Below, piece after piece: positions 3,335 through 48,573 of a stretch of 64,000 nt of DNA (its first letter is position 1; the number at the start of each line of letters is the position of its first letter). Under the pieces are notes generated by a model. It searched no databases, was not told the DNA's origin, and worked only from the letters and a program-made list of their open reading frames with translations. A program made the position numbers and the translations under genes. The stretch is from Anaerotignum sp. (GTDB lineage Bacteria > Bacillota > Clostridia > Lachnospirales > Anaerotignaceae): the NCBI RefSeq assembly GCF_030625865.1, contig NZ_DAOUQB010000007.1, positions 1-64,000 on the forward strand, written 5' to 3'.

Positions 3335-3760
3335 TTAAAACTTATCCATTAAAGCAATTGACATTAAAAGTCCTGCAATTTTTGCAGCCTGGGGGTTAAA
3401 GTTTTCATCTGGGCTTTCGCTGCTGCGTGCGGCAATGAGCCCCCCCTCCTGCGTTAAGGTTGTAACATTCTGGTTTACGCCTTGCAGTGTATGAAGAAAG
3501 AGCAACGAACGTGTGATTTCATGGATTTGTCCTCGGCCTCCTTCATCTAAAAAAGGCGCAATTGCCCGTAAAAGGGTGACTTCTTTTGGTGGGTGTTCAA
3601 CGGTAAAAGCTTTTTGATCACCTGCCGCCAACTGTATTTTTTGTATATAGTTTTTCTCGATCGCTTCTCGCAATGATGTAGCCATCTCCATAAAGTCTTT
3701 TTCTAAACCTTCTGTTTTCTGTAGTGTTTTTGCCAATTCATAAACCATATTACGTTCCAT
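3335..3760 (-). CDS. small helical protein linked to the split protease (unknown function)
   Basis: This 141-residue cytoplasmic protein has no signal peptide. It is predicted mostly helical, with a central LLRAIAPFLDEGGRGQIHEI stretch near residue 83. Its ATG shares its first base with the protease stop codon (TAATG), so the two genes are translationally coupled. The central stretch resembles MLRAIQPYLATEDKKQLDT in the 12581-13048 product on the other side of the protease. The pair looks like a family that travels with this protease. The function is unknown; a partner, inhibitor or substrate of the protease is possible. Confidence 0.8.
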   Translation of the reverse strand: MERNMVYELAKTLQKTEGLEKDFMEMATSLREAIEKNYIQKIQLAAGDQKAFTVEHPPKEVTLLRAIAPFLDEGGRGQIHEITRSLLFLHTLQGVNQNVTTLTQEGGLIAARSSESPDENFNPQAAKIAGLLMSIALMDKF

Positions 3761-4485
3761 TAAGCTAAAACCACCTTTCCTGTTTGAGTAAGACAGGTTC
3801 TTTGATCCAACAGTCCTCCATTTTCAATTGCTATTTTAACTAAGGTCGCCTTAATATCGTTTGGCCAGGCGTAGGGAAATCGTTGGAATAGCAAGGCGGC
3901 CGCCCCACTTACCAAAGGGGTGGCCATGGAGGCCCCGCTCATGCTAATATAGTTGGGATAAATGATATTTTCCCGACTTCGATTAGGCATGGAAAATTGA
4001 TAATCCGGAGAGAGAACAGAAACAATGTTTTCTCCGGGCGCCCAAATGTCAGGCAGGTAGGAAACCTCTTTGGTGAAGAGCGAAAAAGGCTTATGTCGTA
4101 AAAAATAGTTGCGGTCTTCCCAAGTTCCAACGGTAATTACCATGGGGCTGATGGGAGGAGGCGGCTGAAAGCCCCTGCGTCCGTCAGGATTTCCTGCGGC
4201 GGCAACAACAACGATTCCTCTGTGCCATAGTGCTTCAACACTTTCCTTTAGAGGCTGATTTACCTTTCTGTCGTTAGAACCAATGGATAAATTTACTACT
4301 CTTATATTATATTTTGCAGCATTGTCCATTATCCATCTTAATGCGGCAACTGCATGGGATGAGCTGCCTTGGCCGCTGTGATCAAGGATTTTTAAGGAAA
4401 TAATATGGGCTTCCGGTGCAATTCCTGCATAACGTCCGCTGGAGAGTGTGCCGTTACCGCAGGCGATACCCGTGACGTGGGTCAC
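3760..4485 (-). CDS. subtilisin-family (S8) protease, C-terminal part of a split gene
   Basis: The open frame of 241 codons starts with an accidental GTG inside the protease motif, so it is not a natural gene start. Its first residues (MTHVTGIACGNG) continue exactly where the fragment at 12240-12458 stops. The oxyanion Asn is in VVVAAAGNPDG (about residue 99) and the nucleophile Ser in SMSGASMATP (about 186). The catalytic Asp and His are absent because they lie on the other fragment. No ribosome site precedes the GTG. Alone it should be inactive and probably untranslated. Joined with the upstream fragment it would give a 308-residue protease without a signal peptide, hence intracellular. Confidence 0.9.
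   Translation of the reverse strand: MTHVTGIACGNGTLSSGRYAGIAPEAHIISLKILDHSGQGSSSHAVAALRWIMDNAAKYNIRVVNLSIGSNDRKVNQPLKESVEALWHRGIVVVAAAGNPDGRRGFQPPPPISPMVITVGTWEDRNYFLRHKPFSLFTKEVSYLPDIWAPGENIVSVLSPDYQFSMPNRSRENIIYPNYISMSGASMATPLVSGAAALLFQRFPYAWPNDIKATLVKIAIENGGLLDQRTCLTQTGKVVLA
4471..4482. repeat. left junction core of the inserted element
   Basis: CGTGACGTGGGT here matches CGTGACATGGGT at 12243-12254 with one mismatch. On the minus strand both encode Thr-His-Val-Thr in the protease reading frame. The mismatch is synonymous (CAC versus CAT for His). Confidence 0.8.
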
Positions 4486-4563
4486 GTATCTTTATATTGC
4501 TTTTGTAACTGTATTGTTATAAAATAAAAGAATAACCATATAAAAAATTTAGGAGGGACTCCG

Positions 4564-4833
4564 GTGAAAATATCTGAAAAGGGTCAGGCTTTATTAGCGA
4601 AATATAAAAAGTTTCAAAAGTTAGATATATTTTTATTGGCATTGGCCGCATTAAGCTTTGTGTTTTTACACAATATTTATTTGATGATTGCCCTTGTGGT
4701 ATTTACGTTTGTTTTGGAAGCAAAGGTTTATGTGTGTCCCCACTGCAAAAAAAAGTTGGATTGTCGCAGAAGGGTACAGGAAGATACTTGTTGTCCTCAC
4801 TGCAAAAAATATATGTTTAAAGATTTAGACTGA
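4564..4833 (+). CDS. small membrane protein with a zinc-ribbon tail
   Basis: This 89-residue protein starts at GTG, 10 bases after TTAGGAGGGACT. After a charged N-terminus, two closely spaced hydrophobic segments (about residues 20-56) probably cross the membrane. The C-terminus has two CPHCKK motifs (residues 59-64 and 78-83), plus extra cysteines between them, which looks like a zinc ribbon. It is the first gene inside the left end of the element and ends in its own terminator. The function is unknown. It could be an element-maintenance or regulatory protein. Confidence 0.75.
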   Translation: MKISEKGQALLAKYKKFQKLDIFLLALAALSFVFLHNIYLMIALVVFTFVLEAKVYVCPHCKKKLDCRRRVQEDTCCPHCKKYMFKDLD

Positions 4834-4839
4834 AATTCT

Positions 4840-4866
4840 GCCCGCTGATTGATGCGGGCTTTTTTT
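4840..4866 (+). terminator. intrinsic terminator
   Basis: GCCCGC, an 8-base loop and GCGGGC are followed by seven T. It closes the small zinc-ribbon gene. Confidence 0.85.
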
Positions 4867-4991
4867 ATGAGAAAATTAAAAGATGGAATGGAATATTTTG
4901 AATTTAAAAAAGCACAAAATTGTTTTATTTGGGATAAGGCAGACTTTTTCTTGTATATATTGATAATGAGAAAAAATAAGGGGGCGAAAGG

Positions 4992-5906
4992 ATGCCCAAG
5001 GCTGCCTTATACTGTCGTTTATCCGTTGAGGATGGAACGGGAGAGGAAAGTGAAAGTATCCGAAATCAAAGAATGATGTTGATAGCCTATGCCCAAAAAA
5101 ATGGTTGGGAAATTTACGATATCTATGAGGATGAAGATTATTCGGGTTTAAGGGAGGATCGCCCTGCTTTTTGCCGTATGCTGAAAGAGGCAAAGGCAAA
5201 AAAGTTTGAAATAATCCTTTGCAAAACCCAGTCACGCTTTACTCGCAGCGCTGCGACGGCTGAGATTTATCTCCATGAAAAATTTCCCCTATGGGGAATT
5301 CGTTTTGTTACCGTTATAGATGGCGTGGATACCGCAAAGAAGGAAAATAAAAAAGCTAGACAGATTAATAGCCTGGTGAACGAATGGTATTGCGAGGAGC
5401 TTTCTGAAAATATTCGCTCTGTTTTGCGAAGAAAGATGGAGTTGGGACAATTTCTGGGGAATTATGCCCCTTATGGGTATGAAAAGGATGCCGAAAATCG
5501 TCACCGTCTGGTTATTCTTGAGGGGGAGGCGAGGGTGGTAAGATATATTGCAAAGCTGTATCTGTCTGGACTATCTTGCAAAAAAATAGCAGAGAGATTG
5601 ACCTGGGAAAACATTCCTACGCCCTCTCAGGAAAAACAAGAACGAGGGCAAGATCTGGGGCGTAAGCCATGTGCTCACTGGGGAGGAGGAACAGTAAGGA
5701 AAATACTGATAAACCCTGTTTACATTGGGCATATGATACAGGGCAAGGAGCAGAAAATAAGTTATAAATCAAAAAAAACGGTAGAGGTTCCCATGGAGAA
5801 CTGGGTGGTCGTTAAAAATACCCATGCACCGATTTTAAGCGATAAAGTCTTTGAAAAGGTTCAGAAAAAAATGAAAAAAAACCGAAGGGGGCTACATAGC
5901 GTTTGA
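4992..5906 (+). CDS. serine recombinase (resolvase/recombinase domains), C-terminally short
   Basis: This 304-residue protein starts at an ATG preceded by AAGGGGGCG. The N-terminal resolvase domain (about 1-150) has ALYCRLSVEDG with the nucleophile Ser11, the SESIRNQR motif and the RFTRSAA segment. The recombinase domain (about 155-285) shows APYGYEKD, IAERLTWENIPTP and the WGGGTVRKILINPVYIG motif. The protein ends shortly afterwards (MKKNRRGLHSV). It lacks the Cys-rich zinc ribbon and coiled coil that make related large serine recombinases about 450-700 residues long. The stop codon lies inside the promoter of the thi operon, so the 3' end may have been replaced. It is the likely integrase of the surrounding element; whether it is still active is unknown. 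Confidence 0.9.
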   Translation: MPKAALYCRLSVEDGTGEESESIRNQRMMLIAYAQKNGWEIYDIYEDEDYSGLREDRPAFCRMLKEAKAKKFEIILCKTQSRFTRSAATAEIYLHEKFPLWGIRFVTVIDGVDTAKKENKKARQINSLVNEWYCEELSENIRSVLRRKMELGQFLGNYAPYGYEKDAENRHRLVILEGEARVVRYIAKLYLSGLSCKKIAERLTWENIPTPSQEKQERGQDLGRKPCAHWGGGTVRKILINPVYIGHMIQGKEQKISYKSKKTVEVPMENWVVVKNTHAPILSDKVFEKVQKKMKKNRRGLHSV

Positions 5907-5931
5907 CAAAGAAATGCCCCTGTGATATTCT
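5903..5931 (+). promoter_or_regulatory. sigma-A promoter of the thi operon
   Basis: TTGACA at 5903-5908, a 17-bp spacer and TATTCT at 5926-5931 lie just before the TPP aptamer. The -35 box overlaps the recombinase stop codon. Confidence 0.8.
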
Positions 5932-5960
5932 GAAAAAAGGAAGTGATTCCGGTATCATCA

Positions 5961-6044
5961 AATGGGAGCTTGTAGGCAGGCTGAGAGGAAGTACCAATAC
6001 TTCGACCGTAAACCTGATTTGGATAATGCCAACGTAGGGACATA
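5961..6044 (+). promoter_or_regulatory. TPP (THI-box) riboswitch
   Basis: The conserved THI-box elements appear in order: GGGAGC, CTGAGAGG, AAACCTGAT, GGATAATGCC and AACGTAGGGA. It lies in the leader of thiM-thiE and is followed by an attenuator hairpin. TPP binding would favour termination, as known for this class in Firmicutes. Confidence 0.95.
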
Positions 6045-6057
6045 CTTCGTTTATGGA

Positions 6058-6084
6058 GACATTCCCCAAGGGAGTGTCTTTTTT
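6058..6084 (+). terminator. riboswitch-controlled terminator
   Basis: GACATTCCC pairs with GGGAGTGTC (one G-T pair) around a 3-base loop, followed by six T. A second hairpin lies at 6084-6131 (TTAACGGA/TCCGTTAA). A small AAAATCC/GGATTTT hairpin abuts the thiM ribosome site. Confidence 0.8.
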
Positions 6085-6214
6085 AACGGATGTTTGGAGG
6101 TGCAAAGTTGCAGCAGACACTGTCCGTTAAGAGTAAAATTATGAATTAATTTTACAAATTGTTTTTACGGAGCGTTCCACTGCAAAATCCAATGGATTTT
6201 AAGGAGGAAAAACA

Positions 6215-7042
6215 ATGGAAAAAGATTTAATTAAGCGTGTAAGAAAAACGGTACCCTTAGTGCACAACATTACAAATTATGTTACGGTAAATGATGTGGC
6301 TAATATTTTATTGGCCTGTGGCGGTTCTCCCATTATGGCAGATGATGCAGGGGAAGCTGCTGAAATTACAAGTATTTGTGGAGGGTTAAATATTAATATT
6401 GGTACATTAAATTCCCGTACCATTGAATCTATGCTTCTGGCAGGAAAGAAGGCCAAAGAGCTGGAACATATCACTGTTTTGGACCCGGTAGGCGCAGGAG
6501 CATCAAAACTGCGTACAGAAACGGCAATGCGCCTTTTAGAGGAGGTTGGTTTTTCCGTAATCCGTGGGAATGTTTCGGAGTTGAAAACCCTTTGGGGGAA
6601 GGAAGGGAAAACAAAAGGTGTGGATGCGGATATTGCGGATAGTGTCACCGAAGAAAACTTGGACGAAATGGTACAGTTTGCAAAAAAATTAAGCAAGAAA
6701 ACAGGGGCGGTGATTGCAATGACCGGAGCAATTGATGTTGTAGCCCATGAAAATAAAGCATATGCCATTCGCAATGGGAATCCTTTAATGTCTAAAATAA
6801 CAGGAACGGGATGTATGCTAAGTGGTGTCGTTGCGGCATATTGTGTGGCAAATCCTGAAAATTTATTAGATGCTACAGCGGCTGCGGTAGCGGCAATGGG
6901 GCTTTCCGGAGAAATTGCCCTTGAAAGATTGAAAAAAACGGAGCTAGGGGGGACCTCTTCCTATCGTACTTATATTATTGATGCCATGAGTAACATGACT
7001 GATGAAATTTTAGAGGAGGGAATGAAAATTGAAGCTAGATAA
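6215..7042 (+). CDS. thiM: hydroxyethylthiazole kinase ThiM
   Basis: This 275-residue kinase phosphorylates 4-methyl-5-(2-hydroxyethyl)thiazole, the thiazole salvage step of thiamine synthesis. Family marks are PLVHNITNYVTVNDVANILL near the start, GGSPIMADD, VLDPVGAGAS (phosphate binding) and KITGTGCMLSG with the catalytic Cys loop. Length is normal. The ATG follows TTAAGGAGGAAAAACA. It is the first gene behind the TPP riboswitch and overlaps thiE by 14 bp, so the two are coupled. Both lie inside the inserted element. Confidence 0.96.
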   Translation: MEKDLIKRVRKTVPLVHNITNYVTVNDVANILLACGGSPIMADDAGEAAEITSICGGLNINIGTLNSRTIESMLLAGKKAKELEHITVLDPVGAGASKLRTETAMRLLEEVGFSVIRGNVSELKTLWGKEGKTKGVDADIADSVTEENLDEMVQFAKKLSKKTGAVIAMTGAIDVVAHENKAYAIRNGNPLMSKITGTGCMLSGVVAAYCVANPENLLDATAAAVAAMGLSGEIALERLKKTELGGTSSYRTYIIDAMSNMTDEILEEGMKIEAR

Positions 7043-7667
7043 AAAAAGCTTATTATTATATGCAGTGACAGACCGTATGTGGCTAAGTGGAAGAAAACTT
7101 GCTGATGATGTGGAAAAGGCACTCCTAGGGGGAGCAACTTTTGTGCAGTTACGGGAAAAGGATGCGTCCTTTGATATGTTTGTAGAGCAGGCGAAGGAAG
7201 TAAGGGAAGTTTGTAAAAAATACGGAGTACCCTTTGTAATTAATGATAATATTGAAGTGGCTTTGGCCGTAGATGCAGACGGCGTCCATGTGGGACAAAG
7301 CGATATGGAGGCAGGGCGTGTTCGAGAAAAGCTGGGAGAGAATAAGATTATTGGCGTTTCCACCCGTACTGTGGAAGAGGCATTGCTTGCACAAGAAAAG
7401 GGTGCCGATTATTTGGGTGTTGGGGCTATGTTTCAAACCTCTACAAAGCTGGATGCGGCAGATGTATCCTTTGATGAGTTGAAAGAAATTTGTGAAGCAG
7501 TTCATATTCCTGTGGTTGCTATTGGCGGAATCAGCAACAAGAATGTTGAAAGCCTTGAGGGCACAAATATTGATGGGGTTGCTGTGGTTTCGGCTTTGTT
7601 TGCGGCAGAGGATATTAAAAAAGCGGCTCATGACATGAGAGAAAAATTAGAAAGGTTTATAAAATAA
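7029..7667 (+). CDS. thiE: thiamine-phosphate synthase ThiE
   Basis: This 212-residue TIM-barrel enzyme joins thiazole phosphate and pyrimidine pyrophosphate into thiamine monophosphate. Visible marks are LYAVTDR, GGATFVQLREKD, VPFVINDNIEVA, DGVHVGQSD, GADYLGVGAMFQTSTK (pyrophosphate loop) and PVVAIGGISNKN. It starts at TTG 7029, inside the end of thiM, behind GAGGAGGG. With ThiM it forms a salvage pair; no de novo thiamine genes are seen in this window. A strong terminator follows at 7761. Confidence 0.96.
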   Translation: MKLDKKSLLLYAVTDRMWLSGRKLADDVEKALLGGATFVQLREKDASFDMFVEQAKEVREVCKKYGVPFVINDNIEVALAVDADGVHVGQSDMEAGRVREKLGENKIIGVSTRTVEEALLAQEKGADYLGVGAMFQTSTKLDAADVSFDELKEICEAVHIPVVAIGGISNKNVESLEGTNIDGVAVVSALFAAEDIKKAAHDMREKLERFIK

Positions 7668-7760
7668 CGCCTGAAAGGCTGAAGTTGTGGAGTCCATTAT
7701 TCAAATTCAGTTTTTGGGAGACTATTTCGGATTTCCTGAAAAGTTCGATAATCAAATATA

Positions 7761-7796
7761 AAACCCCCTTTGGCATATGCCAAGAGGGGGTTTTAT
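7761..7796. terminator. bidirectional intrinsic terminator
   Basis: AAACCCCCTTTGGCA is followed by a compact loop and TGCCAAGAGGGGGTTTT. It is shared by the convergent thiE and GntR genes. Confidence 0.9.
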
Positions 7797-8509
7797 TATC
7801 CGGTAGGCTGGACAATTTGATTTACTTTAAAAATCAGCTGCAAAGCACGCCTGGAGTTTTCAATGTGGACTTGAACGGCTTTATTTAGTGCGTCCAAATC
7901 TCCGGTAAAGGCAGCTTTTAATATTGCTTCGTGTTCTGCCACACATTCACAGTCTCGGTAGTGGGGTTGGTTTAAATATGTACCTGTTGCATAGGTAAAA
8001 GGCTGTAAATTGGTAAATACATCAATGGCTTTTTGGTTGCCTGATGCGGTTAAATAGAGCGTGTGAAACTCCAAATCCATTGCGAAATATTTTTCCGGAT
8101 AAAGAGAAGATTCACTGTTTTGTACAAATCTTTTTTGCTCTTCAAGGTTTTCCACCAGTTGCTGTCGCAGACTATTGTTATAATTTAAAGTTGAAACAAT
8201 GTCTTTAACAAAAAAGGTATCCATCATCAAGCGCATATCAAAAATATCGTTTAGCTCATCAGGCGTTAGTAAGTATACACTCATACCTTTATTTGGCGTA
8301 TTTGCTACCAACTTTTCGTCGGCTAAACGCTGAAGAGCCTGTTTTACAGGTGTATCACTAACATTATATTTTCTTGCGAGTTCTTTAATATTCAGTTTTT
8401 CACCAGGCTGGAATTGCTTTTTGGCAATATCGCTTTTTATTTCTTGATAAATGCGATTTGTCAAGGTTAATTTTTTGCCGCTCAAGGCATTCTTTTTTTC
8501 TTCATCCAT
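7796..8509 (-). CDS. GntR-family (FCD/FadR type) transcriptional regulator
   Basis: This 237-residue protein has an N-terminal winged helix (about residues 15-85: RIYQEIKSDIAKKQFQPGEK, then IKELARKYNVSDTPVKQAL). A C-terminal helical FCD ligand domain with FHTLYLTASGN and EHEAILKAAFTGD follows. FCD regulators usually bind small organic acids and control their uptake or catabolism. It is transcribed divergently from the TRAP transporter, so it probably senses the substrate and controls that operon. The ATG at 8509 follows AAAAAAGGGGGAAT. A palindrome upstream (8565-8584) fits an FCD operator. Confidence 0.92.
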   Translation of the reverse strand: MDEEKKNALSGKKLTLTNRIYQEIKSDIAKKQFQPGEKLNIKELARKYNVSDTPVKQALQRLADEKLVANTPNKGMSVYLLTPDELNDIFDMRLMMDTFFVKDIVSTLNYNNSLRQQLVENLEEQKRFVQNSESSLYPEKYFAMDLEFHTLYLTASGNQKAIDVFTNLQPFTYATGTYLNQPHYRDCECVAEHEAILKAAFTGDLDALNKAVQVHIENSRRALQLIFKVNQIVQPTG

Positions 8510-8564
8510 GGTATTCCCCCTTTTTTACAATTTAGTTCACTTTTCATCGTCTTTCCCCCAAGTT

Positions 8565-8584
8565 ATTATAGTATAGACTATAAT
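8565..8584. promoter_or_regulatory. candidate GntR/FCD operator
   Basis: ATTATAGT-ATAG-ACTATAAT is a perfect 8-bp inverted repeat between gntR and dctP. Its core TAGT-N4-ACTA follows the T-N-GT...AC-N-A layout known for FadR-subfamily operators. Binding is inferred. Confidence 0.5.
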
Positions 8585-8863
8585 GAAAATCTACTTTTTT
8601 GCAAAAACACATGATATTCTAAGGATTTTTTAAGAATATTTTAATTTAAATGCCTTATTGCGTTAATAAGTGATTTATTTTTTGAAATAAAACATTTATT
8701 AAAAATACATAGAGTTGATTTGTCACAAAACAAAAGGTATATTTTTGTGCATAAGTATTTCTTTTTTTTATTTATTAAAATTTAATTAAAAAATTTAGCA
8801 AAAAATAATAAAAAAAAGTCTTAAAATGTAGAATTTAGAAAGATTATTCGTCTTTATTACGGA

Positions 8864-8892
8864 TTGACTATGAAAAAATTGATAATTATAAT
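8864..8892 (+). promoter_or_regulatory. sigma-A promoter of the TRAP operon
   Basis: TTGACT at 8864-8869, a 17-bp spacer and TATAAT at 8887-8892 predict a transcript starting near 8899, about 155 bases before the dctP ATG. Confidence 0.75.
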
Positions 8893-8897
8893 TAAAA

Positions 8898-9008
8898 AAG
8901 ATGATTAATTTCTAATAAAACAAGTTTTTTTATTAAATAATCATCTTGTATCCTCGGCCGGGATAGACCAGAAATGATCTTACAAAAGATGATTCCAGAA
9001 CTTGTTTT
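8898..9008 (+). ncRNA. structured leader of the TRAP operon with alternative pairings
   Basis: AAGATGATT occurs at 8898-8906 and 8986-8994, and its complement AATCATCTT at 8939-8947, so the middle copy can pair with either. Fold 1 adds TAATAAAA(8913)/TTTTATTA(8928). Fold 2 adds AAAACAAGTT(8917)/AACTTGTTTT(8999) and an inner TATCC/GGATA hairpin. It matches no riboswitch class that I recognise. Confidence 0.5.
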
Positions 9009-9053
9009 GGAGAGAGAAAACCGGAAATCGTTCAATATTTGGGAGGGAAATCT

Positions 9054-10196
9054 ATGTTGAAAAGAGGTATAGCTGCTGCATTAGCAACAGTTATGATGCT
9101 TGGACTCACTGCATGTGGGGAAAAACCTGCTGAAACAGCAACAGGTGATTCCAATACCCCTGCAACTCCGGCGGGCTTTGTAGAAAAGAAGGTTGAGCCT
9201 GATAATTTTGATTCAGGAGTAGAATTAACCGATGATTGTTATCGTTTTATTTATGCTCTTGGCAATGCCCCTGCGACAATTGACGCTGCAAAATACTTTA
9301 AGATGCGTTTGGAGCAGGAAAGCAATGGGACATTAAGTTGTGACATTTATACTGATAACGTTTTGGGCAGTGAACGTGAATTATTAGAAGGTTGTCAATT
9401 TGGCAATTATGATATCGTATTGGCTACAAATGCAACTGTAGCATCTTTTAGCAATGATATTTTTTGTTTAGACATTCCTTGGTTATTTGATAACAAGCAG
9501 CAAGTTTATGAGGTGCTGGATGGTGTTTTAGGTGACACACTTGCCGCAGGTTTGGAAGATAAAGGCTTTAAGTTATTAGAATGGCAGGAAAATGCTTTTC
9601 GTACATTAACAACTTCAGACAGAAAAGTTGAAACTGTGGATGACCTGAAAGGGTTGAAAATCCGTATCATGGAAAACGAATTGCAGTTGGCACAGTGGAA
9701 AAATTATGGGGCAAACCCCACACCTATGGCATTTACTGAATTATTTACTGCATTACAGCAGCACACAGTAGATGGTCAGGATAATGGTGCAGAATTAACT
9801 TGGCAGACAAAATTCTGTGAAGTGCAGAAGTATTATACTTATACAAAACATATTTACTCCCCTTATCTTATCCTGATGAGTAAGGATAAATTTGAAAAGC
9901 TAACACCCCAACAGCAGGATATCGTAATGCGTGTTTCTGACGAAGCGGTAAATTACGAGCGTGAAAGATGTTCCAAGTACGAAGCAGTTGCTTTAGAAAA
10001 TATCAAGAACTACCCCGGCATGACTTATACAGAGTTGACTCCGGAAGCGGTTGAAGAGTTTAAAGCTGCATGTACTGACATTAAAGGTTTAGCTTACAAA
10101 AAAGTAACTCATCCGGAAATTGTAGACTTATTGTATAGTGAGGCTGAAAAAGCGAAAGAAAAGTTCCCTGCTGAGGGTACAGATTCAGCTTCGTAA
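9054..10196 (+). CDS. dctP: TRAP transporter substrate-binding lipoprotein (DctP family)
   Basis: This is the extracellular receptor of a tripartite ATP-independent transporter. The ATG at 9054 lies 6 bases after GGGAGGG; a TTG at 9039 is in frame but overlaps the ribosome site. The signal peptide ends in a lipobox (GLTAC, Cys about residue 21), so the mature protein is membrane-anchored, followed by a Thr/Ala/Pro linker. DctP marks are GSERELLEGCQFGNYDIVLA, the GLKIRIME segment with the substrate-carboxylate Arg, and DGQDNGAELTW. At about 380 residues it is of usual size. The substrate is probably an organic or sugar acid. Confidence 0.94.
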   Translation: MLKRGIAAALATVMMLGLTACGEKPAETATGDSNTPATPAGFVEKKVEPDNFDSGVELTDDCYRFIYALGNAPATIDAAKYFKMRLEQESNGTLSCDIYTDNVLGSERELLEGCQFGNYDIVLATNATVASFSNDIFCLDIPWLFDNKQQVYEVLDGVLGDTLAAGLEDKGFKLLEWQENAFRTLTTSDRKVETVDDLKGLKIRIMENELQLAQWKNYGANPTPMAFTELFTALQQHTVDGQDNGAELTWQTKFCEVQKYYTYTKHIYSPYLILMSKDKFEKLTPQQQDIVMRVSDEAVNYERERCSKYEAVALENIKNYPGMTYTELTPEAVEEFKAACTDIKGLAYKKVTHPEIVDLLYSEAEKAKEKFPAEGTDSAS

Positions 10197-10216
10197 ATAA
10201 GAGGGGAGGCAGTTAA

Positions 10217-10705
10217 ATGAAATTCTTTAATGAACATTTGGAAGAGTTCTTTATTATTCCATTGATGTTTTTGATGAGTATCATTATTTTCATTCAGGTT
10301 ATCATGCGTTACGCATTCCAAAATTCCTTGGTTTGGTCAGAGGAATTATCAAGATATATGTTTATTTGGCTTATTTATTTTGCGGTAAGCTATACAGCAC
10401 GTCGTGAAAAACACATTCGTATTGATGCTGCAATTAACTTATATCCCAAGAAGTTTAGACCATATATTGAAATTTTAAGTGAAATTATTGTTTTAGGTTT
10501 TTCTATATTTATTGCTGTAACAGCAGTAACGGTATATCAAAAAATTACTTGGAGCGGTCAGATTTCTCCTGCTATGCGTATTCCCATGCAATATGTGTAT
10601 GCAGCACCTTTGATTGGATTTATTTTAACAGCGATCCGTCAGCTTCAATGTATTGTGAGAAGGATAAAGGCAATTAAGAATCATGAGGAGGTGGCTGAAG
10701 CATGA
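10217..10705 (+). CDS. dctQ: TRAP transporter small membrane subunit (DctQ family)
   Basis: This 162-residue protein has four predicted membrane helices. The family signature is a Trp-Ser-Glu-Glu motif after the second helix (NSLVWSEELSRYMFIWLIYF), followed by TARREKHIRID. It pairs with the large subunit to form the transport channel. It starts at an ATG 11 bases after GAGGGGAGG and overlaps dctM by 4 bp (ATGA). Confidence 0.92.
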   Translation: MKFFNEHLEEFFIIPLMFLMSIIIFIQVIMRYAFQNSLVWSEELSRYMFIWLIYFAVSYTARREKHIRIDAAINLYPKKFRPYIEILSEIIVLGFSIFIAVTAVTVYQKITWSGQISPAMRIPMQYVYAAPLIGFILTAIRQLQCIVRRIKAIKNHEEVAEA

Positions 10706-11991
10706 CAAGTGGTATTGCTCTCGTTGTTTTTGGCACGCTGATTGTTTCCTTAATTTTAACCGTGCCCATCGGTTTTTCACTGGGTATTGCTTCTTTGGGA
10801 TATATTTTATATACCAAGCAGTTAACTTTTGGATTTATTACACAGAACTTAGTAACAGGTGCGGACTCTTTTCCAATTATGGCAATTCCGTTTTTCGTAT
10901 TTGCCGGGGAATTAATGGGCGGCGGCGGGATCTCCCGAAGATTGCTGAATGTTGCCAATGTATATTTTGGTCGAGTTAGAGGCGGTTTGGCCATTGTAAC
11001 AGTTGTTGTTTGTATGTTCTTTGCGGCAATTTCCGGCTCCGGCCCTGCAACAGTTGCGGCAGTAGGTGGTATGGTTGTTCCTACAATGCTGCAAAAAGGC
11101 TATGACAAAAAGTTTGTATTGGCTTTGATTGCTGCGGCTGGGTCCATCGGCGTTATTATTCCACCTAGTATTCCAATGGTTGTTTACAGCGTTACCACAA
11201 ACAGCTCTGTTAGTAAGTTGTTTATGGCGGGTTTTGTTCCCGGTATTATTATCGGCCTGGTATTGATCGGTTACGCTTATTTTTTTGCCAGAAAGATGGG
11301 TTACAAGGGTGACGAAGAACCTTTTACTGTGAAGAGAGCAGTAAAAGAAACCTGGGATAGTAAGTGGGCTTTGCTTTCACCTATTATCATTTTAGGCGGT
11401 ATTTACGGCGGTATCTTTACACCAACAGAAGCAGCGGCTGTAGCCGTAATCTACAGTTTGATCATTGGTTGTTTGGTTTACAAAGAACTGAATTTGAAGC
11501 AATTAATGGAAGTTACCAAGAATGCTTGTGAAACTACGGCTACAATTCTGATTGTAATTGGTTGTGCTGCCGGTTTCTCTAAGGTTCTTACACTGGGACG
11601 TATCCCTACAACGGTAGCTACATTCTTAACATCCATGACAGACAGTAAGATTGTCATTTTATTGTTAATTAATGTGTTGTTGTTAATTGTTGGTTGTTTT
11701 ATGGAAACATTGTGTGCAATTATGATTTTAGCCCCCATTCTGTTCCCTGTAGTTACAGCATTGGGTGTAGACGTAACACACTTTGGTATTATTATGGTAG
11801 TAAACTTGGCAATTGGTTTTATTACACCTCCTTTAGGCGTAAACTTATTTGTCGCCGCCCGGGTTGGCGAGACCACGTTGGATTCTGTTATAAAGGGGAT
11901 CATGCCTTTCTTGGTGTTAATGATTATTACGTTGCTCATAATTACTTATGTACCCGCAGTTTCCATGTTCTTGCCTAATTTGTTATCCTAA
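10702..11991 (+). CDS. dctM: TRAP transporter large permease (DctM family)
   Basis: This 429-residue polytopic subunit carries the Na+-coupled transport. Typical stretches are PIMAIPFFVFAGELMGGGGI, FFAAISGSGPATVAAVGG, IGVIIPPSIPMVVY, GGIYGGIFTPTEAAAVA and GFITPPLGVNLFVAA, in the usual order. It begins with the ATGA overlap of dctQ and has a GAGGAGG site inside the dctQ end. It is the last gene of the element; a hairpin and a terminator follow before the right junction. Confidence 0.95.
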   Translation: MTSGIALVVFGTLIVSLILTVPIGFSLGIASLGYILYTKQLTFGFITQNLVTGADSFPIMAIPFFVFAGELMGGGGISRRLLNVANVYFGRVRGGLAIVTVVVCMFFAAISGSGPATVAAVGGMVVPTMLQKGYDKKFVLALIAAAGSIGVIIPPSIPMVVYSVTTNSSVSKLFMAGFVPGIIIGLVLIGYAYFFARKMGYKGDEEPFTVKRAVKETWDSKWALLSPIIILGGIYGGIFTPTEAAAVAVIYSLIIGCLVYKELNLKQLMEVTKNACETTATILIVIGCAAGFSKVLTLGRIPTTVATFLTSMTDSKIVILLLINVLLLIVGCFMETLCAIMILAPILFPVVTALGVDVTHFGIIMVVNLAIGFITPPLGVNLFVAARVGETTLDSVIKGIMPFLVLMIITLLIITYVPAVSMFLPNLLS

Positions 11992-12046
11992 GGCAAGCTG
12001 AAGGCGGAAAGGAAGTTATGGTTTATGATATTTGTAAATAAGATTA

Positions 12047-12081
12047 AGAGGCAATTATTGGATTGTGCAATCATCTTATTT
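12047..12081 (+). repeat. stem-loop after dctM that repeats the leader motif
   Basis: AAATAAGAT pairs with ATCTTATTT, with an inner GCAAT/ATTG(T)GC helix. It contains a further copy of AATCATCTT, the motif used three times in the dctP leader. Confidence 0.45.
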
Positions 12082-12160
12082 GCTGCAGTTTGTATGTTCT
12101 ATTATTATTGATTCAAGTTATCTCCTATCGTAAGATAGTTGTGACTCATATTGAACTCCA

Positions 12161-12195
12161 GAAGAACCCTCTTTCTAAAAGAAAGGGGGTTCTTC
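12161..12195 (+). terminator. stem-loop terminator after dctM
   Basis: GAAGAACCCTCTTTC, a 5-base loop and GAAAGGGGGTTCTTC form a long stem. The T tail is weak (CGTTGTCTT). It closes the TRAP operon near the right end of the element. Confidence 0.7.
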
Positions 12196-12239
12196 GTTGT
12201 CTTAATCAGCGTTTATATTATGAAAAAACGGAAATTTGA

Positions 12240-12458
12240 TTACGTGACATGGGTGCCGTGACCGTTATCATCATAGGCAGCCTTTTTTCCACCGACAAAA
12301 TCACGAAAGATGGTGATCCTATTTTGGGGCGTGATAAAATCCGCAACGGGGGAGATACCTGTATCTAGGAAGGCAATGCCGATTCCTTTTCCTGTAAAAA
12401 GGGATTCAGGAGAGGTTTTGGCTTCGCCGGTTGGAGACGAATAATTTGGAAAAGACAT
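12240..12458 (-). CDS. subtilisin-family (S8) protease, N-terminal part of a split gene
   Basis: The frame starts at ATG 12458, 8 bases after AAAGGAG. An ATG at 12467 is in frame but touches the ribosome site. Its 72 residues carry the catalytic Asp (GIAFLDTGI, D32) and catalytic His (DDNGHGTHVT, H67), then hit TAA supplied by the inserted DNA. No signal peptide is visible. The missing rest, with the catalytic Ser, is at 3760-4485. If transcribed now it would make a short inactive peptide. Confidence 0.88.
   Translation of the reverse strand: MSFPNYSSPTGEAKTSPESLFTGKGIGIAFLDTGISPVADFITPQNRITIFRDFVGGKKAAYDDNGHGTHVT
12243..12254. repeat. right junction core of the inserted element
   Basis: CGTGACATGGGT is the partner of the left core at 4471-4482. 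Protease sequence continues to the right of it; element sequence, with an immediate stop codon in the protease frame, lies to the left. Confidence 0.8.
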
Positions 12459-12580
12459 GGAAAACATCTCCTTTCTTTCTCTATTAAAATATGTGGAAAT
12501 AAGTTTTTGGGAATAGGCAAAGGTATTTTTTCTTCTTGTTTGTCATATGTTTTTAAAAGGCTTGTTGGGGGAGGTTTAAA

Positions 12581-13048
12581 ATGGATGGGAAACTGAACAG
12601 CGAGCAAATGAAGCTTTTAACCGGAATGATGGGAGCTGAAGGCAACGATGCTCTGCAAATGATAGACAGAATAGAGCGATTGCGCCGTCTTTTGGGGAAT
12701 GCTGAGGTACAAAAGCAACAGGACATACAAGTGAAGGAAAATTCTGCGTTGGAATCACCCTTTGGCAGTACACAAGGGGAAAATATTTTATTTGCGGCCA
12801 TTCCTTTTTTGGATATGGAATTTCAAAAAAATATTTTTGTTGCAGTGCGATTTATGGAGCTAAGGCGTGTTTTAGAGGGGACAAAGCTGGAGGCAAGGGA
12901 AAAGCAGGAGGATCCTGTGAGTCGTCGGCATAAAATGCTGCGTGCCATACAGCCGTATTTAGCCACCGAAGATAAAAAACAGCTGGATACAATGATAAAA
13001 ATAATGGAAATAAGAGAAATTATGGGTCGTAAGGAGGGACAAAAGTGA
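12581..13048 (+). CDS. small helical protein linked to the protease, two repeat units (unknown function)
   Basis: This 155-residue, highly charged and probably all-helical protein lacks a signal peptide. Two segments resemble each other: NILFAAIPFLDMEFQKNIFV (about residue 67) and MLRAIQPYLATEDKKQLDT (about 111). Both resemble LLRAIAPFLDEGGRGQIHEI in the gene at 3335-3760. The ATG follows GGGGGAGGTTTAAA. It is transcribed divergently from the protease and is coupled to the next gene by a GTGA overlap. The function is unknown; the linkage suggests a role with the protease. Confidence 0.8.
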   Translation: MDGKLNSEQMKLLTGMMGAEGNDALQMIDRIERLRRLLGNAEVQKQQDIQVKENSALESPFGSTQGENILFAAIPFLDMEFQKNIFVAVRFMELRRVLEGTKLEAREKQEDPVSRRHKMLRAIQPYLATEDKKQLDTMIKIMEIREIMGRKEGQK

Positions 13049-13305
13049 GTAAAGAAAAGGAGATACCGGAAATGCAGGCTTTGGGAGAAGAAAGACTGCG
13101 CTTAATTCGAGAAGCGGCGGAAAAAAGCCGAGGAAAAACAGGAATGGACAGATTGGATGTTTTTTTGGAATATGGGGAGCGATTAGCACAGGGAGGTAAA
13201 CTGCCTGAAGACCAGCAAAAGGCACTATTGGCGGCAGTAAGTGCTACATTACCTGAGGAAGAACGAGAAAGAATGGTACAGATTATGTCCATGTTGGGAT
13301 ATTAG
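13045..13305 (+). CDS. small charged helical protein, coupled to the preceding gene (unknown function)
   Basis: This 86-residue protein starts at GTG 13045, overlapping the previous stop (GTGA), behind AAGGAGGGAC. It is Glu/Lys/Arg-rich. The segment QKALLAAVSATLPEEERERM is a weaker match to the Leu-Leu-x-Ala-Ile-x-Pro-Tyr-Leu pattern of its neighbours, which suggests a third diverged family member. A terminator follows at 13347. No known domain is recognised. Confidence 0.75.
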   Translation: MSKEKEIPEMQALGEERLRLIREAAEKSRGKTGMDRLDVFLEYGERLAQGGKLPEDQQKALLAAVSATLPEEERERMVQIMSMLGY

Positions 13306-23746: not shown

Positions 23747-24084
23747 TCGTGAGTAAGCTGGATGGTCGCGCCCCATAAAGGTGAGGAAAGTCCGGGCTTC
23801 GCAGAGCAGGGTGCCGGTTAACAACCGGTGGAGGCGACTCTAAGGAAAGTGCAACAGAAATAAACCGCCTGTTTTTACAGGTAAGGATGGAAAGGTGGGG
23901 TAAGAGCCCACCGCTCTTCTGGTAACAGGGGAGGCTCTGTAAACCCCACCCGAAGCAAGACGAAAAGAAACGATAGGGCTGCTCGTCCTGTTTCTATAAA
24001 TGTCGCATGATGCTGTTGGCAACAACAGACCAAGATAGATGGCTGTCCACGACAGAACCCGGCTTACATGGCTTGCTCACGATA
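23747..24084 (+). ncRNA. rnpB: RNase P RNA (bacterial)
   Basis: The catalytic RNA of RNase P matures tRNA 5' ends. Universal core elements are visible: GAGGAAAGTCCGGGC near the 5' end, ACAGAAATAAACCGCC, GGTAAGGATGGAAAGGTGGG, GTAAACCCC...GAAGCAAGA, and AACCCGGCTTACA near the 3' end. The ends TCGTGAGTAAGC and GCTTGCTCACGA pair to close P1. The length of about 338 nt is normal. A consensus promoter precedes it and a terminator follows. Confidence 0.96.
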
Positions 24085-43407: not shown

Positions 43408-43451
43408 ATAAATGAATAATAGTCGATTTTATTCGACGGAAAATAAATATA

Positions 43452-43613
43452 AGATAGAGGTGCGATGTTCATGAGTAGCCCTTCGTATTACGTCAAGGAG
43501 GCGGAAGAGGAAAGGGAGCATTGCCGAAGTTAGGGGTCTCTGCCTTGAGGGATGCTTGGCTGGCGCACTACAAAATATGTAATGTGCTGTCACTTATGTG
43601 GAGCGCTATCGGG
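43452..43613 (+). promoter_or_regulatory. lysine riboswitch (L-box)
   Basis: Conserved elements appear in order: AGATAGAGGTGCGA, GAGTAG, AGAGGAAAGGGAG, TTGCCGAAG, GGGTCT...GCCTTGAGGGATGCTTGGC and TGTGCTGTCA, closed by GATAG/CTATC. A terminator follows at once. Lysine binding would stop transcription into the transporter gene. Confidence 0.93.
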
Positions 43614-43650
43614 AACTCGGAACTTCCAAATATTAATTGGGATACTTTTG

Positions 43651-48374: not shown

Positions 48375-48474
48375 TCATTATCGTGAGTAACTACGCAAAT
48401 ATCCCCAAAACAGAATGCAAAGACATTCCGGGGGTTGCTGTGATAATAAAGAGGAATCGCTTCTTCATTATTTG

Positions 48475-48573
48475 ACAGCGGGATGCGGGGTTTGTACCGC
48501 AAGGATTAACCTTTTCGTTCTCGTGGCAACTCCCCGTCCACAAGACACTTAACGCACAAAGCCCTACTCTGTA
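48475..48573 (-). promoter_or_regulatory. tetrahydrofolate (THF) riboswitch
   Basis: On the minus strand the class elements appear in order: AGAGTAGGGC, GCGTTAAGTG, GGGGAGTTGCCACGAGAACG, GGTTAATCCTTGCGGT and CCGCATCCCGCTG, closed by ACAG/CTGT. It lies about 155 bp before folT. This agrees with the known THF class in Clostridia controlling folT or folE. Confidence 0.9.

Follow-up and report, generated by a model that had tools for sequence, protein, structure and literature searches.

On the minus strand of the window, by which we mean the whole 64,000-nucleotide stretch of Anaerotignum sp. DNA analysed in the present study, a gene encoding an S8 subtilase (PF00082) is interrupted by an insert of about 7.8 kb carrying a serine recombinase and several cargo genes (Table 1). 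The split falls within the motif DNGHGT[H]VTG, and the crossover dinucleotide corresponds to the first two bases of the catalytic-His codon, which is opened by the central CA of the minus strand. The catalytic Asp and Ser motifs are kept in the protease halves, the latter reading GSSMATP or GTSMSTP in lineage g9 and a few others in the alignment. Small conserved neighbours with no Pfam or NCBIfam match (12581-13305 and 3335-3760) flank the S8 gene in many family members. The Rfam search of the window identified an RNase P class A RNA (23750-24083), a lysine riboswitch (43447-43616) and a THF riboswitch (48474-48573), and no RNA family inside the element.

Table 1. Features of the interrupted S8 locus (positions in the window)
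Feature	Position	Strand	Remarks
S8 3' part	3760..4485	-	Ser motif SGASMATP; gives last base of catalytic-His codon once joined
attL core	4471..4488	.	host arm CGTGAC, GTGG (central TG 4478-4479), element arm GTCACGTA
Small membrane zinc-ribbon-like protein	4564..4833	+	adjoins attL
Possible recombinase promoter	4931..4962	+	GGGATA-N16-GTATATATTG; sigma-E-like -35, imperfect -10; conserved within Anaerotignum; weak
Short serine recombinase, 304 aa	4992..5906	+	Resolvase and Recombinase domains present, zinc ribbon and coiled coil absent
thiM (hydroxyethylthiazole kinase) and thiE (thiamine-phosphate synthase)	6215..7667	+	cargo
GntR/FCD regulator	7796..8509	-	cargo
TRAP transporter DctP, DctQ, DctM	9039..11991	+	cargo
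attR core	12241..12254	.	element arm TACGTGAC, ATGG (central TG 12250-12251), host arm starts GT
S8 5' part	12243..12467	-	Asp (LDTGI) and HGTH; start 12467, or 12458 by Shine-Dalgarno spacing
S8 promoter, sigma-K-like	12485..12516	-	TTCCCAAA, followed by CATATTTTA (12485-12493); split and intact loci have the same promoter type

The contents of the element vary among lineages. The Anaerotignum elements contain thiM-thiE together with the GntR-TRAP set, and those of g7 contain GntR-TRAP alone; the G006 element encodes a MATE-like transporter (by reading of the open reading frame), the g9 element a 610-aa protein and a ferritin-like protein (named from sequence reading), and the 2.5-kb element of G014 only the recombinase, thiM and thiE. 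The small membrane zinc-ribbon-like protein is present in five short-recombinase lineages (g1, G006, g7a, g11 and g2) and absent from the others. The possibility that the element holds the sole thiM was rejected, as a second copy (46%) exists.

Element ends and the predicted circle junction

The left core CGTGACGTGGGT (4471-4482) and the right core CGTGACATGGGT (12243-12254) have CGTGAC[G/A]TGGGT in common, and crossover at the central TG would release a circle of 7,772 bp. A sequence-only reading of this DNA had claimed that the joined ends form a perfect 8-bp inverted repeat, that neither existing junction has this repeat in full and that the chromosome-side target is not symmetric, and these claims were borne out. 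The joined ends read TACGTGAC-ATGG-GTCACGTA, with arms palindromic at 8/8 positions around a 4-bp centre, whereas the attL arms match at 6/8 (CGTGAC-N4-GTCACG) and those of attR and the reconstructed chromosomal site at fewer. When 10 positions outward from the centre are counted, the dyad matches are 8 for attP, 7 for attL, 6 for attR and 5 for attB. The element arms (4481-4488 on the left, 12241-12248 on the right) are the sole copies of the 8-mer on both strands of the window. The window contains three perfect 8-bp palindromes with an N4 spacer, where 0.98 would be expected, so finding one such palindrome somewhere is unremarkable; its weight comes from its position at a junction already fixed by the protease frame, where the chance of finding it is about 4^-8 (1.5e-5).

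The central dinucleotide TG, which is non-palindromic and common to both sites, was found at every junction read. Together with a symmetric P site and a less symmetric B site, this fits the attP/attB-type serine-recombinase site that had been suggested, and the assigned boundaries are correct to the base, falling in the same codon in all 28 loci read at both ends. In each of these 28 loci, the joined sequence is in frame and reads DNGHGTH or NNGHGTH followed by V[T/A]G. The sequence supports the presence of serine-recombinase crossover-site features at the junction. The sites look short, with approximately 8-13 bp per arm, matching a recombinase that lacks the zinc ribbon and the coiled coil.

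A short recombinase under purifying selection

The recombinase contains a Resolvase catalytic domain (PF00239, E=5.5e-24), with an invariant Ser in YCR[LI]S, and a Recombinase domain (PF07508, E=2.7e-26, residues 179-297). The zinc ribbon (PF13408) was not found in the short recombinases of the window and of three other loci (L015, L080 and L101), nor was the coiled coil that lies inside the zinc domain, and the protein stops just past the recombinase domain; full-length relatives at the same codon extend through zinc-ribbon as well as coiled-coil-like sequence. Thus, the enzyme is different from an ordinary integrase. Truncation by frameshift was considered and rejected, because no C-terminal domain lies downstream in any of the three forward frames to 6215 and the relatives all stop at the same place; in six genera, recombinases at the S8 site are complete at approximately 295-320 aa. 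An AlphaFold2 model (mean pLDDT 79.6) is nearest in fold to SPbeta integrase complexes. A second, separate short form is present in g12. In the genome to which the window belongs, three serine recombinases in a row were observed (G000:C36:60987-64940; L004-L006), with similar triplets in relatives. Within Anaerotignum, dN/dS is 0.18 for the N-terminal part of S8, 0.075 for the C-terminal part and 0.042 for the recombinase, and in other lineages the values for S8 and the recombinase are mostly below 0.16; the short N-terminal piece in g7b, with few changes, gives 0.36. These ratios indicate that purifying selection is acting on both protease halves and on the recombinase.

Discrimination between attP and attB has been assigned to the zinc domain and coiled coil of integrases (PMC3783163), and deletion of the coiled coil from LI integrase abolishes the difference between attB x attP and attL x attR recombination (PMC10754689). 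Since both parts are missing here, the recombinase is predicted to act without a directionality factor (RDF). No element-encoded RDF was found, and the minimal element L101 (2.5 kb) has space for recombinase, thiM and thiE only; an RDF may be encoded elsewhere. In the same study, phage integrases with the coiled coil deleted were poorly active (LI, approximately 2%) or dead (phiC31) (PMC10754689), which counts against the excision proposal.

Distribution, co-variation and inheritance

A search with the rejoined protein covered 58 family genomes (Anaerotignum and relatives). The S8 gene is split in approximately 36 of them, belonging to 10 genera, a count that takes in some genomes with the halves on different contigs, and is intact in approximately 14. 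The sequence-only reading had made its boundaries depend on related elements sharing end points and arms, and they withstood this check: the end points are the same in 28/28 loci and the arms co-vary in the short-recombinase lineages; in L087 and L089, two g12 loci with a different short recombinase, arm agreement is just 2/12. Among the 18 short-recombinase loci with both arms read (8 lineage groups), the element arms match each other at 7-12 of 12 positions; the mean per group is 9.4/12, compared with 6.6 after permuting partners across lineages (p=0.0003). The left host arm co-varies with both element arms (BL-PL p=0.0045; BL-PR p=0.0006), and the right host arm showed no significant co-variation in permutations of the same lineages; all of these p values serve as guides, the lineages being related. 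In g9, position 3 is T rather than G in the left host arm and in the two element arms, giving the Val codon GTA, and in g7b these three arms have T for C at position 6, giving the Thr codon ACA, so that both host-arm changes are synonymous. The residue after this Val is Thr in the short-recombinase lineages except G014, and Ala, Cys or Ser in most intact homologues. In most elements with full-length recombinases, arm symmetry is weaker or missing. By this co-variation, the chromosome side is not a neutral target, the left (coding) arm being fitted to the element arms and changing with them, and the site pair looks more like a long-maintained excision device than a recent integration.

Distances among short recombinases agree with those of the S8 C part (r=0.94, 22 S8-linked short recombinases) and of SpoIVA (r=0.91, 19 recombinases). 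Two intact S8 loci (L102 and L103) were observed in the otherwise split g7, and the second of these, in G061, retains the Thr codon typical of split genes. G061 falls within the split g7 clade in both the S8 and SpoIVA trees, and G027, likewise intact and without a short recombinase in the orthologue search, falls there in the S8 tree (the SpoIVA tree does not include it). Because G061 is intact inside a split clade and keeps the split-type codon, precise loss of the element fits, and a single old insertion with occasional precise loss would be the simplest account of the trees.

Several side observations concern other recombinases at or near this site. Full-length recombinases of 439-537 aa sit at the S8 His codon in other genera (L095, L096, L098, L086 and L088). 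In g12 (L016, L018 and L030), a short recombinase followed by thiM-thiE lies outside the S8 gene; in L016 (9992-12441) this related set adjoins gltX, and other recombinases occupy the g12 S8 site. It is possibly a relocated or leftover element. Two recombinases, one beside each S8 half, were observed in G017 (L084 4439-5392 and L085 5685-7283) and in G008 (L093 and L094), in both cases with the halves on different contigs, and perhaps represent a second insertion into the same site.

Might the element then be an ordinary integrative mobile element, directed at a conserved codon of the protease and picked up independently many times? The presence of the full-length enzymes in g4, g10, g14 and part of g12 means that the site is open to repeated insertion, it seems to have been entered more than once, and some genera contain both split and intact genes. 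Against this, the cargo is metabolic, the elements examined showed no recognisable conjugation or phage genes, the orthologue search gave short orthologues in this family only, the recombinase tree follows those of the host proteins, and the host arm changes with the element arms. We regard repeated acquisition of the short-recombinase element as unlikely, and vertical inheritance remains the preferred reading.

Promoters and a probable link to sporulation

Upstream of S8, TCACC or TCCC precedes a CATA -10 box by approximately 15 nt, in split and intact loci alike, and the promoters of L010 and L074 are the same as those of other Anaerotignum. A loose form of this pattern was found in 33/40 S8 loci against 0.5 in shuffles, a control that overstates the significance because the counted loci share ancestry. 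The sigma-E and sigma-K promoters of C. difficile have very similar -10 elements and differ at -35, ATA versus AC (PMC3789822). The -35 of many split loci is TCCC, unlike the AC of sigma-K, which counts against the sigma-K reading. The call rests on the published consensus (PMC3789822, PMC517825) with spoIVA, whose promoter in the family is of the sigma-E type, as comparison, since neither of two further controls was detected in the family: YabG (TIGR02855) was not found in any of the 58 genomes, and DpaA gave no match above the cut-off in any. The recombinase promoter pattern, GGATA-N16-17-[C/G][A/T]TATT, is no more than suggestive of sigma-E. SpoIVA is present in 53/58 genomes, making the family spore formers by gene content. 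Given the promoter likeness and these sporulation genes, the S8 gene is probably linked to sporulation, and the rebuilt product would most likely be a late mother-cell protease. YabG is a sporulation coat protease, and the S8 protease might do related work.

The sporulation-type S8 promoter bears on another possibility, phase variation, in which excision and re-integration would toggle the protease in growing rather than terminal cells. An enzyme that has neither zinc ribbon nor coiled coil may be bidirectional (PMC10754689), and G061 suggests that loss from the germline is possible. Nevertheless, the assemblies of the split genomes contain the element, and its loss removes the recombinase itself, as in G027. 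Together with the promoter, these points make phase variation improbable.

Still less credible is a dead relic, consisting of a truncated integrase and a broken protease gene, both non-functional. The recombinase indeed lacks the usual C-terminal domains, and the circle-junction pattern TACGTGACRTGGGTCACGTA had no match in IMG/VR and none in the own genome assembly, but selection on the recombinase and both protease halves, intact catalytic motifs, a conserved promoter, the frame kept in 28/28 loci and the co-varying arms make this very unlikely. Finally, each protease half is an open reading frame of its own, and the two might be produced as separate polypeptides that combine into an active enzyme with the element still in place; this we consider hardly conceivable, because many N frames enter arbitrary element sequence and stop soon past the junction, and because in four genomes of four genera (L073, L086, L090 and L101) the unexcised N side encodes Gln (CAG/CAA) and the C side supplies the His-making base, so that the catalytic His exists in the recombined gene only.

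Discussion

Herein, we propose that the insert is a domesticated, vertically inherited intervening element, which is quite likely excised, probably in the mother cell, to rejoin the protease gene. Because it carries its own recombinase, has mirror-image ends and is inherited at the same spot across the family, its most likely role is that of a genetic switch excised on purpose. First, the short recombinase would bind the 8-13-bp arms around the central TG at both ends and cut out the element as a circle, and excision would rejoin the protease gene, since this TG (CA on the coding strand) provides the first two bases of the catalytic-His codon. Second, attL x attR recombination might proceed without a directionality factor, given the missing zinc ribbon and coiled coil, in which case control would lie in the timing of recombinase production. 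Third, the sigma-K-like promoter of S8, and perhaps the sigma-E-like one of the recombinase, would time excision to sporulation and confine it to the mother cell; the circle would be lost with the dying mother cell, and the element with its cargo would stay in the forespore DNA. For the full proposal, namely a family-wide programmed excision by a minimal RDF-free recombinase that completes a sporulation protease's His codon in a terminal cell, with element ends and host co-evolving, we see about an even chance.

Like the known elements skin, gin and yin, the element carries its own site-specific recombinase and splits a gene that can be restored in frame (28/28 loci). The skin element of sigK (B. 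subtilis and C. difficile) is a serine-recombinase element in a mother-cell gene whose precise excision restores the frame, as proposed here, but it is prophage-like and has a large serine recombinase, joined in C. difficile by an RDF (PMC5025042); the Anaerotignum element has a 304-aa recombinase, metabolic cargo, a protease target and inheritance across genera, and its excision is predicted. The gin element in gerE of Bacillus cereus is also non-prophage, has an imperfect inverted repeat around a short shared core and rebuilds a sporulation gene, as proposed for S8; unlike the present element, it has three recombinases together with GirX, a 42-aa factor, and is limited to some strains (PMC5595907). 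The yin element in yabG of Clostridium botulinum V73 lies in a protease gene of sporulation, which excision rebuilds, as would be the case here, but it is a prophage in one strain, with a zinc-ribbon recombinase and a putative RDF (PMC10747680), whereas here the target is an S8 subtilase in many genera of a family without detected YabG. The large serine integrases (LI, phiC31, Bxb1 and SPbeta YokA) share the catalytic and recombinase domains; the short enzyme differs in having no zinc ribbon or coiled coil, its arms are short and symmetric, and its element encodes no RDF that was found.

The sporulation intervening elements described in the papers found are mostly prophage-like, have a directionality factor and are in some cases restricted to few strains. 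The short recombinase offers a natural test of the roles of the zinc ribbon and coiled coil in serine integrases, and a compact enzyme (approximately 300 aa) with short sites may serve as a tool. If the proposal is true, an element kept in many genera, its half-sites co-evolving and its recombinase stripped down, would be proof that intervening elements of this kind are able to turn into lasting components of development, and the family would harbour a bacterial counterpart of developmentally removed intervening DNA.
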